A stretch of DNA of 27,374 nucleotides from a virus: the IMG/VR virus record IMGVR_UViG_3300005511_000061, positions 1 through 27,374 of that record. The stretch is one strand, 5' to 3'. Positions 19,278 to 21,643 of this stretch are shown piece by piece. The notes under the pieces are model-generated. The model saw only the letters and a program-made list of their open reading frames with translations, did no database searches and was not told the origin of the DNA. Every line of letters begins with the position of its first letter. Positions within the stretch are counted from its first letter, which is position 1. The position numbers and the translations under genes are program-made.

Positions 19278-19718
19278 CTACATAGACACGGCGTTTCTCA
19301 CCATCTTGCTGCGCCGAGGCCGCGGACGTCGTTTCCTACCTTTGGTCGGCTGCCGGCTCGGATTGTAGTAGCGCGTGTACCGAGGCGCGGCCTGCTCGTT
19401 GTGCTCGCCCCTCACGTGCCCAAAGAACATCCTGAGCATCTCCTCATCGGTGACGCGCTGTGCTTTGCCGCAGGGGTTCGCGGGCACACGGTAGACGCCG
19501 TGAATATCGGGGATCCCCGCCCAGTCTCGGGCATAGGTCATGAAGAACACGTAGCCGGTGAATTGCGGCACTTCCTTGCGATAGTCATGGCCGTCGACCT
19601 TCCAGGAACGCGCGTAGGTCGGTAGAAAAGCACCGTGGCCGCCCTTCTCGATGTCCCGGCGCGCAATGTGCTCCATCTTAGAAACCGTCTGCGCGACCGC
19701 CCAATATCGCTCCGTCAT
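19278..19718 (-). CDS. NusG N-terminal-domain protein, probable phage antiterminator
   Basis: 146 aa, ATG overlapping the LuxR-type gene stop as ATGA. Residues 5-80 follow the NGN fold: YWAVAQTVSKMEHIARRDIE, FLPTYARSWKVDG, and the core motif PQFTGYVFFMTYARDW (51-66; compare the P-G-Y-V-F/L-V of NusG/RfaH), ending with a VYRVPA strand. There is no KOW domain. Residues 113-146 form a very basic tail (KGRKRRPRPRRSK). NusG and RfaH bind RNA polymerase through the NGN. A phage protein with only this part could make polymerase resistant to terminators without linking it to ribosomes. It is the last early leftward gene before the moron island and the late operon, the right place for a late-gene antiterminator. 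Confidence 0.8.
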   Translation of the reverse strand: MTERYWAVAQTVSKMEHIARRDIEKGGHGAFLPTYARSWKVDGHDYRKEVPQFTGYVFFMTYARDWAGIPDIHGVYRVPANPCGKAQRVTDEEMLRMFFGHVRGEHNEQAAPRYTRYYNPSRQPTKGRKRRPRPRRSKMVRNAVSM

Positions 19719-19912
19719 ACCGTTGCTCCCAATGTCTTCCTGACCAATTCAACCACGTTGCGAACGCCCATCTTCTCGTAGATTGCTGCTCGATGGGTCT
19801 CGACTGTCCTAGCCGCCATTCGGAGCTCCGCAGCGATCTCTTTGTTGGTTTTGCCGACGGCAAGGAGTTCGCAGACCTGCGCTTGCCGCCTTGTCAATCT
19901 CTGATCGGGCAT
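19715..19912 (-). CDS. LuxR/GerE-type HTH DNA-binding protein (65 aa)
   Basis: 65 aa from the ATG at 19912, with AGGAG eight bases upstream; a TTG one codon earlier is also open. Almost the whole protein is a GerE helix-turn-helix: LTRRQAQVCELLAVGKTNKE, IAAELRMAARTVETHRAAIY, EKMGVRNVVELVRKTLG. There is no receiver or autoinducer domain, so it is a stand-alone DNA-binding unit, as in other phage late-gene activators of minimal size. It is coupled (ATGA) to the NusG-like gene, suggesting the pair acts together to switch on late transcription. Confidence 0.85.
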   Translation of the reverse strand: MPDQRLTRRQAQVCELLAVGKTNKEIAAELRMAARTVETHRAAIYEKMGVRNVVELVRKTLGATV

Positions 19913-19943
19913 CAATTAGCTCCTGAACGCGGCATTCTCCTGC

Positions 19944-20228
19944 TCACCACTTCACCGCGTCGGCGACACCCGGTGGCAGATCTTCCGCCAGATCATAAAC
20001 GCGCTTCCAAAGCGCATCGTCGATGGTGGATGCTCGCGGCGGGCTGGATCGGATTAGGCAAAAACCCTGAAATGGTTGGTTGCTCGGTGTCGGCATCGAG
20101 GAGTTCAACCGGCGTAGAAGATCCGCGGCGGCTTCGTTCGCTTTTGACGGCAACAAGCCGTAACTATCCCGGAGCGTCTGGGAGATGATGCGCTCCGCTT
20201 TGTCGCTATCGACGCGAATTTCCGTCAT
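19944..20228 (-). CDS. Unknown early protein (94 aa)
   Basis: 94 aa, ATG overlapping the stop of the preceding 108-aa gene as ATGA. Helical N-terminus (DSDKAERIISQTLRDSYGLL, then ANEAAADLLRRLN), a Ser/Pro linker, and an acidic C-terminal helix (DDALWKRVYDLAEDLPPG). No recognised motif. Good coupling and normal composition make it a real gene of the early operon, with unknown role. Confidence 0.6.
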   Translation of the reverse strand: MTEIRVDSDKAERIISQTLRDSYGLLPSKANEAAADLLRRLNSSMPTPSNQPFQGFCLIRSSPPRASTIDDALWKRVYDLAEDLPPGVADAVKW

Positions 20229-20551
20229 GCCAGCGATCCGTCAGTGGGGCGCGCAACAGGACCTGCCGTGGACTGCCTCGCGGCCTCTTGCTCCACCGCC
20301 TCCTCCCGCTTTAGGACATCAGGATCCGTTCGCTGCGGATTTGCATCGACAACCGCACGAAGTCTAGCGATGACGTCGGGCAGGAACTCCTTGCATATGA
20401 CGACGATAACATCTTCCTCTTCGTTCCAGGCGCGTTCCTGCTTGATGACGGCTTGGCCCCAGTGGTTTACATAGACGGCGGTTGCTCTCTGCTCCGGCAC
20501 AATCACATCCCCGTTTGTTGCACACCAATCAAAGCTCTCATTGTTCGACAT
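20225..20551 (-). CDS. Unknown early protein (108 aa)
   Basis: 108 aa from the ATG at 20551, with GGAG nine bases upstream. Earlier in-frame starts overlap the replication-type gene and are rejected. Strands in the middle (GDVIVPEQRATAVYVNHWGQ; EEDVIVVICKEFLPDVIARL) suggest a small alpha/beta fold. The C-terminal 35 residues are charged and probably disordered. It lies 28 bases downstream of the winged-helix initiator-like gene and is coupled to the next gene. No function recognised. Confidence 0.6.
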   Translation of the reverse strand: MSNNESFDWCATNGDVIVPEQRATAVYVNHWGQAVIKQERAWNEEEDVIVVICKEFLPDVIARLRAVVDANPQRTDPDVLKREEAVEQEAARQSTAGPVARPTDGSLA

Positions 20552-20579
20552 TGCACTAGGCTCCAGGTTGATTGCTGCA

Positions 20580-21425
20580 TTACGCAGCACTTTCGTTTCT
20601 CTTCGATGCGAAGAGGGCATACAGCTCCAGACGGTCGAGCGTGCCCGCCGCTTCCTTCGCTGTGATCTGATCGAGCTCGCTGGGCTCGAGGATTGACAGC
20701 TTCAGCCAGCCGTCTGCGCCGAGGCGCTGGGCAATCCTGTTCTGAATCACCTCGGTGCGCTCCGGTGTGCCCGGCCCGCTCGCTTCGGCGCCCTTGAGTG
20801 GGCGCGCTCCGCGGGCCTTCTGACTGTCCCCTCCCCGAGATATAGATAGTGGTACGGTTTCCGTACCTTGGGCAGTAGTGGTGGTTTCCGTACCGAGGAA
20901 ATCGCGTTCTCGGTGCGGTTTCCGTACCGAGGATTGACGATTTCCGTACTTCAGATTTTGTTTTTTGGAGGGCTTGGCTGTCCGAGCTGCGGCCGCCAGG
21001 ATCGGCGCATCCGCTTCGCTGACCTTCATCCACTCGTGTGTGCCGTCGCCCGGCAGGCCTTTTGCGTGGCGATACGTCAGCCGGTACTTGCTCGGCCTTC
21101 TGTACTCGGTCGATCCCGCAACCCCCTGCTCCGTCACCTCGACGAAGCCGAGAGCGACGACTTCCTGGATGGCCGGATAGATCGCTTGTCGATGGAGCCC
21201 GTAGCTCTCGAAGTCTTGGTAAGTAACGGGCAGCCTGCCGTTGTCGGTGCCGCCGTGATCCGCTAGCTCGATCTCCAACCGGTCCAGGATCCGGCGCGCT
21301 GACAGACTGAGTATGCAATACGCCGGCGAGCGGAGCATATCGATGCGACGCGGCGCGAATTGGCCTCCGATGGCTGTGCGGCGTTGTCTGCTCAATTGGC
21401 ACCGCCCGATTGTCCGCCCCAGCAC
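20580..21425 (-). CDS. Winged-helix protein, putative replication initiator (O-like)
   Basis: Up to 281 aa. The start is uncertain: GTG at 21425 overlaps the preceding gene by 34 bases, and TTG at about residue 11 is the main alternative. Residues 22-120 form a winged-helix region: QFAPRRIDMLRSPAYCILSL, ARRILDRLEIELADHGG, LPVTYQDFESYGLHRQAIYP, then a wing (GFVEVTEQGVAGSTEYRRPS). Residues 150-200 are low complexity, and their DNA carries the iteron-like repeats described separately. The C-terminus is helical (EVIQNRIAQRLGADGWLKLS to LDRLELYALFASKR). A DNA-binding head, a repeat-bearing linker and a helical tail mirror lambda O and P22 gp18, in which the origin is inside the initiator gene. A transcription-regulator role cannot be excluded. 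Confidence 0.6.
   Translation of the reverse strand: MLGRTIGRCQLSRQRRTAIGGQFAPRRIDMLRSPAYCILSLSARRILDRLEIELADHGGTDNGRLPVTYQDFESYGLHRQAIYPAIQEVVALGFVEVTEQGVAGSTEYRRPSKYRLTYRHAKGLPGDGTHEWMKVSEADAPILAAAARTAKPSKKQNLKYGNRQSSVRKPHRERDFLGTETTTTAQGTETVPLSISRGGDSQKARGARPLKGAEASGPGTPERTEVIQNRIAQRLGADGWLKLSILEPSELDQITAKEAAGTLDRLELYALFASKRNESAA
20851..20950. repeat. Iteron-like array (candidate replication origin) inside the initiator-like gene
   Basis: GGTTTCCGTACC occurs exactly at 20856-20867, 20883-20894 and 20917-20928, with a degenerate copy GATTTCCGTACT at 20939-20950. The first copy extends to a perfect inverted repeat, GGTACGG-TTT-CCGTACC (20851-20867), and the third nearly so (GGTGCGG-TTT-CCGTACC). 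Start-to-start spacings are 27, 34 and 22 bases. AT-rich patches flank the array (20839-20850 and 20954-20967). The copies fall in all three reading frames of the gene, so the DNA and not the peptide is repeated. Confidence 0.75.
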
Positions 21426-21643
21426 AAAAGAGCTGCGCGAACTGCCCCCTCCATCGAGACGAGCTCTATTGCGATTAGCGCTTCACCGACACCCTTGCGT
21501 CGCATCGCGACGGCCTGCGTCTGGAGTTGCCTCTGAATATACCGCTCGGCTGCCTCAGGCCGCATCGCGGCGGCGATTTCCGCTTGCCTCTCGATGAAGG
21601 ACACGCGGAATCTGAGCGGAAAGGGAAGGACTGCCGCCGTCAT
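21392..21643 (-). CDS. Small early protein with N-terminal 'PFP' (DUF6074-like by appearance)
   Basis: 83 aa, MTAAVLPFPLRFRVSFIERQ, followed by EIAAAMRPEAAERYIQRQLQ and AMRRKGVGEALIAIELVSME. The plan (V-x-P-F-P, basic residues, F-I-x-x-Q-A, M-R-P-x-A-A-E-R-Y, then a second helix and A-I/V-R-A) is one I associate with short alphaproteobacterial proteins, possibly DUF6074; not verified. Helical, soluble, function unknown. Its 3' end overlaps the long version of the initiator-like gene. Confidence 0.65.
   Translation of the reverse strand: MTAAVLPFPLRFRVSFIERQAEIAAAMRPEAAERYIQRQLQTQAVAMRRKGVGEALIAIELVSMEGAVRAALLCWGGQSGGAN

Follow-up and report, generated by a model that had tools for sequence, protein, structure and literature searches.

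A candidate iteron origin inside the gene of a winged-helix initiator-like protein with relatives across the Rhizobiales

The winged helix of staphylococcal pSK41 Rep binds four boxes in the middle of the rep gene, where the linker encoded by the boxes is dispensable and a separate C-terminal domain serves the host machinery (PMC5703833). Iterons of the RepA_N group are inverted repeats that converge on a poly-A tract (PMC7145576), and PLEs show covariation between the DNA-binding domain and the origin (PMC8263062). The lambda O gene is a phage initiator gene that contains four iterons (PMC7466680), and RepC of the repABC replicons provides an alphaproteobacterial example of an origin lying inside the gene of its initiator (PMC3155836).

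Here we analyze the 27,374-base IMG/VR virus contig IMGVR_UViG_3300005511_000061 (positions 1 to 27,374; this whole stretch is referred to as the window), in which an initiator-like gene contains an array of four repeats. The best reading of this locus is a new, Pfam-less initiator-like family with an in-gene iteron origin built like those of pSK41 Rep and lambda O. We infer origin function from the evidence below, and place the probability that the array is an iteron replication origin inside its own initiator's gene at about 0.8.

The initiator-like gene and its repeat array

The record has a GC content of about 60% and carries portal, terminase large subunit and integrase genes. A repressor-like gene is divergent from an early operon, of which the initiator-like gene is part. 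The true start of this gene is probably the TTG at 21395, since it matches MSRR...GQF in homologues and overlaps the stop codon of the DUF6074 gene. An AlphaFold2 model divides the protein into two confident domains joined by a linker.

20580..21395, minus strand: initiator-like gene of 271 aa, counted from the probable TTG start at 21395
21392..21643, minus strand: DUF6074 gene, directly upstream of the initiator-like gene and overlapping it
20976..21353, minus strand: winged-helix DNA-binding domain (predicted), residues 15-140, pLDDT mostly >90
20772..20954, minus strand: linker encoded by the array DNA, residues 148-208, pLDDT <50 over most of its length
20586..20765, minus strand: C-terminal helical module, residues 211-270, confident, shared with HTH_36 "replication initiation O-like" proteins

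The array-encoded linker is thus predicted to be disordered and to tolerate any peptide. A Pfam scan finds no family for the protein, which has a marginal PHROG match to phrog_270 "replication initiation protein" (E 0.009). When the model is compared with known structures, RepA_N initiator domains occupy VIA-align ranks 1, 2, 6 and 10 (Z 6.8-8.1). This fold match is weak and close to background, the best Z being 8.1 and unrelated winged helices such as LexA and CodY scoring 6-7; TubR (Z 5.8) and ORC folds, also in the structural list, have background Z and were discarded.

The C-terminal module shares 49% identity over 55 aa with the HTH_36 protein of locus L044, which has hits to phrog_1032 replication initiation (1e-25) and to phrog_391 O-like (1e-20); the set of HTH_36 proteins to which it belongs gives replication-initiation or O-like PHROG matches of up to 1e-28. 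The module is missing from most homologues of the initiator-like protein. Five Bradyrhizobium loci (L043, L044, L046, L047 and L048) encode HTH_36 O-like initiators with this same module, and several of these carry in-gene repeats of their own, such as CACCATGCCGCACCAGGCCCGG in L044.

Other genes of the early region merit mention. The DUF6074 neighbour recurs in many homologous elements (phages, islands and a plasmid) and possibly encodes a replication accessory protein. A 131-aa gene follows the initiator-like gene (20225-20620), and its relatives lie just upstream of the initiator gene in two other loci (L090 and L092). The early operon also includes a NusG-like (PF02357) protein at 19278-19718, a possible phage antiterminator, beside a gene for a 66-aa LuxR-type HTH protein at 19715-19915.

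The array occupies 20851-20950, wholly inside the initiator-like gene. As the original prediction had it, three exact copies of GGTTTCCGTACC (20856-20867, 20883-20894 and 20917-20928) and one degenerate copy, GATTTCCGTACT, with two mismatches (20939-20950), lie within 95 bases; elsewhere in the 27,374-base record the repeat does not occur, even allowing one mismatch. On the minus strand the sites take the form GGTACGG-AAA-CCnnnnn, site A starting AGTACGG, and their centres are 22, 34 and 27 bp apart.

20953..20967, minus strand: A-rich patch CAAAAAACAAAATCT, preceding site A and conserved in most homologues
20934..20950, minus strand: site A (degenerate), AGTACGG-AAA-TCGTCAA
20912..20928, minus strand: site B, GGTACGG-AAA-CCGCACC, near-perfect palindrome with one mismatch
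20878..20894, minus strand: site C, GGTACGG-AAA-CCACCAC
20851..20867, minus strand: site D, GGTACGG-AAA-CCGTACC, perfect palindrome
20833..20849, minus strand: constant box CTATCTATATCTCGGGG, directly after site D

Two further properties claimed at the outset are borne out. Two copies extend to inverted repeats around a TTT centre, perfect at 20851-20867 (GGTACGG-TTT-CCGTACC) and with one mismatch at 20912-20928, and the flanks are AT-rich, with GC of 0.28 at 20940-20964 and 0.40 at 20840-20864. To gauge chance, we recoded the gene 20,000 times with synonymous codons drawn from the phage genes. The eight commonest outcomes, together 19,977 of the draws, never contain more than one exact copy, and three exact copies are absent among the outcomes listed, so the array is not a product of chance. 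As a single strand the array has a stable fold (z -4.4), which its palindromes explain; we did not adopt a role as RNA or hairpin, since structure by itself needs no uniform word in all four sites, and an Rfam search gives no match. DnaA boxes near the array are fewer than expected by chance, and GC skew does not switch at the array.

Homologues, conserved scaffold and rival roles for the array

Relatives of the initiator-like gene are present in viral contigs (L004, L005, L020, L052 and L053) and, among bacterial genomes, in 25 of the 266 from Bradyrhizobium, 19 of 397 sampled across the order and 17 of 392 across the family. Three plasmid records carry relatives too, including the closed 31.5-kb pVL1_6 of Methylobacterium indicum. 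Some of the weaker genome matches represent only the C-terminal module or a distant winged helix that lacks a clear array. A tblastn search with three family members gives no match in 50,697 phage records, and a search of viral contigs for the box pattern yields no match with the stricter pattern, while the second pattern leads to L052 and L053.

Across Bradyrhizobium, other Rhizobiales, viral contigs and the Methylobacterium plasmid, the homologues keep four palindromic sites with centres about 22, 34 and 27 bp apart. Anchored on the box, the alignment is almost gapless and runs in the order AAAACAAAA, site A, site B, spacer, site C, site D, CTATATCTCGG; in 21 elements the spacings are 22-25 bp, 33-35 bp and, mostly, 27 bp. 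The repeat word itself varies among elements, with GGTACGGAAACC, GTGGGGAAACCC, GTGATGGAAACCGGCAC, GGGTGGAAACCACCC, GGGGGCGAAAGCGCCCC and GGTCCACATTTTGGAC as examples. Within an element the word is uniform: the arms of sites C and D agree at 11.5 of 14 positions in the same element and at 8.3 between elements, a difference that none of 10,000 permutations reaches. The expectation that the 12-mer would be kept while frames and peptides vary therefore holds for the number, spacing and palindromy of the sites and fails for the exact 12-mer, each element having a word of its own.

The locus L014 was found through its palindromes alone: a distant winged-helix gene (4377-5100, 33 bits to the family profile) lies directly upstream of four same-word palindromes, GGTACGGAAACCGTACC-like and then CTATCTAGAACTACC, in an array that runs past the 3′ end of the gene. 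In L007 (2912-3343), an HTH gene resembling a replication protein has GGTACGGAAACCGTACC and a half-site in its 5′ end. Palindromes of the form GGTACGG(A/T)3CCGTACC occur at six places in L009 (1616-3951; IMGVR 3300028548_007493), and L013 is similar; two of those in L009 stand directly before a Shine-Dalgarno sequence and ATG, and the set looks like an operator/promoter family unrelated to the initiator-like gene. In the more distant L038 and L040, the region 3′ of the stop codon contains irregular repeats (such as AAGTTACATACGGTGGAACTGC) together with a TATATCT box, in a layout unlike that of the main family.

The array need not be coding. In at least nine loci it lies wholly or partly outside any reading frame: a stop codon precedes it in L032, L034, L049 and L050 and falls inside it in L035, L037 and L107, and in all seven of these the array is intact (in L032 the A-rich patch overlaps the stop codon and site A is unclear); repeats are also present after the stop in the more distant L038 and L042. 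If the array is an origin, it can therefore move into and out of the reading frame of its initiator. In the window, the four copies are read as YGNR, VRKP, GTET and GTET; the centres of the sites fall at codon phases 0, 1, 2 and 2, so that all three frames are used, as first proposed. The box reads LSISRGG, TIDISG or YCLYLG in three different frames.

That the repeats reflect constraint on a peptide, with T-E-T motifs recurring in the linker, has a point in its favour: in coding members, sites C and D usually share one frame and read (S/G)xETxTT. The frame argument alone is for this reason weaker than it looked, its main support coming from sites A and B, from the box and from members whose array is non-coding. 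However, a peptide constraint is contradicted by arrays kept outside reading frames, does not account for sites A and B in different frames or for copies that synonymous recoding did not reproduce, and would act on a stretch predicted to be disordered. We regard it as extremely improbable. The uniform, element-specific word and the arrays outside reading frames indicate that selection acts on the DNA and not on the peptide; the claim to this effect stands, as the array persists in homologues while frame, peptide and coding status change.

The core of the box, C[T/G]ATAT, is invariant in all 22 homologues counted, at a fixed distance from site D, and in the 266 Bradyrhizobium genomes every match with up to two mismatches falls at a locus of the initiator-like gene family; those matches with three mismatches that were inspected proved to be unrelated ordinary sequence without arrays and were rejected. 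An invariant box at a fixed distance could also mark a promoter, with the array as operator or activator site and the winged helix controlling transcription of downstream genes from CTATAT as the -10 element. The box resembles the -10 element of alphaproteobacterial promoters, and the fold is also that of transcription factors, as the LexA and CodY matches illustrate. Yet no conserved gene lies 3′ of the box, where the elements compared have in turn a terminase, ParB plus a methylase, a resolvase, an S49 peptidase or host-type genes. Moreover, a promoter search finds no sigma-70-type promoter, the -35 position would coincide with the variable site D, the phage holds no second operator copy, and the C-terminal module belongs to replication initiators. 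Taken together, these points make a regulatory role for the array unlikely.

Gene neighbourhoods also bear on whether the array might be a centromere, with the winged helix acting at this partition site in the manner of TubR or ParR. The structural list does include TubR (Z 5.8), a ParB-like gene lies downstream in L004, and pVL1_6 has a ParA-family gene. On the other hand, no partition NTPase gene recurs near the homologues, most of which are chromosomal, sit beside an integrase and need no partition, and the C-terminal module is again of the initiator type; a centromere thus appears very improbable. Upstream, many elements have integrase, AlpA-like and DUF6074 genes. On pVL1_6, the initiator-like gene and a non-coding array share one closed circular replicon with helicase and primase genes, and no other initiator was recognized there.

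Covariation of the winged helix with the repeat word

We then scanned every variable winged-helix residue against every half-site base, all against all, in 25 elements. The top pair, by a wide margin, is residue 68 with half-site base 5 (z 12.2), followed by wing residues 93-96 with half-site base 3.

21192..21194, minus strand: codon for His68, where the predicted recognition helix begins; residue 68 covaries with half-site base 5
21108..21119, minus strand: wing residues 93-96, covarying with half-site base 3

The recognition helix and the wing are the parts by which winged helices contact DNA. His68 pairs with C or T at base 5 and Asp68 with G, a rule that holds in 26 of 26 elements read by hand and in 23 of 25 by automatic site consensus; six of the 26 (L124-L128 and L130) were added once the rule had been formulated, and the ambiguous L131 was excluded. 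A tree built without the covarying residues shows about five changes in both traits, with only one independent pair on strongly supported branches, so that the covariation rests on related sequences and may in part reflect shared ancestry. The pairing of residue 68 with base 5 and of the wing with base 3 suggests that each initiator-like protein most likely binds its own array.

Origin model and comparison with known initiators

As the best explanation of these observations, the original prediction of a candidate phage origin is supported, with origin function proposed from sequence and predicted structure. In our model, dimers or tetramers of the winged-helix protein would bind sites A-D, and the bound complex would open AT-rich DNA on one flank, at the A-rich patch or at the CTATAT box. 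Recruitment of the host helicase or primase would fall to the C-terminal module or, where this is missing, to a partner protein, and the excised phage would replicate. The constant box may serve as a melting element, a host-factor site or an activation promoter.

On a broader scale, we see about an even chance that these are element-private origins of a widespread, undescribed family of alphaproteobacterial initiators. The scaffold would be fixed (spacing, A-rich patch, CTATAT box and optional C-terminal module), while residue 68 and the wing would read a word that can be exchanged. If so, words and domains would change together, so that many replicons are compatible with one another and their specificity code can be read. 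Unannotated genes of phages, plasmids and satellite-like elements in nitrogen-fixing and related bacteria would gain a function, and dozens of naturally occurring initiator/origin pairs would become available in which the DNA word is partly predictable from the protein. Comparison would then be a way of testing initiator-iteron specificity and incompatibility, and compatible replicons for use in rhizobia could follow.

Among the described systems, RepC shares the class of host. Its origin is iteron-free and A+T-rich, in contrast to the iteron array found here, and the initiator-like family members scanned have no match to the RP-C domain.

Lambda O, proposed at the outset as an analogue, is a fair one (PMC7466680), and staphylococcal pSK41 Rep is closer (PMC5703833). 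The C-terminal module occurs on O-like HTH_36 proteins, whereas the N-terminal domain lacks a clear O-like family match: over the DNA-binding domain, the homologue L052 matches phrog_391 O-like at 9e-5 and the window protein matches only phrog_270. The lambda origin has a single AT-rich tract, in place of the two short AT patches seen here, and no P-like helicase loader was recognized among the window genes scanned, several of which have no family match.

The RepA_N structures named in the comparison are the N-terminal domain of pSK41 Rep (4pql/4pt7), pTZ2162 (5kbj/4pta) and the PLE satellite RepA (4ro3). The 26 family members tested have no Pfam RepA_N match at E 0.1, and a profile search of PDB sequences returns no RepA_N chain at E 1. 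The family departs from RepA_N initiators in its alphaproteobacterial hosts, in the constant CTATAT box that follows the array, in arrays that may fall outside the gene, and in the absence of a C-terminal domain from many members. The layout is nonetheless of the RepA_N type, with inverted-repeat iterons that converge on an A tract, lie centrally in the gene and encode a linker. Like pSK41 Rep, the window protein has a predicted N-terminal winged helix, four mid-gene sites, an array-encoded linker and a separate C-terminal domain. Sequence comparison does not clearly place the gene in either family, and we consider it, with its array, a candidate in-gene iteron origin that would work in the manner of pSK41 Rep and lambda O.
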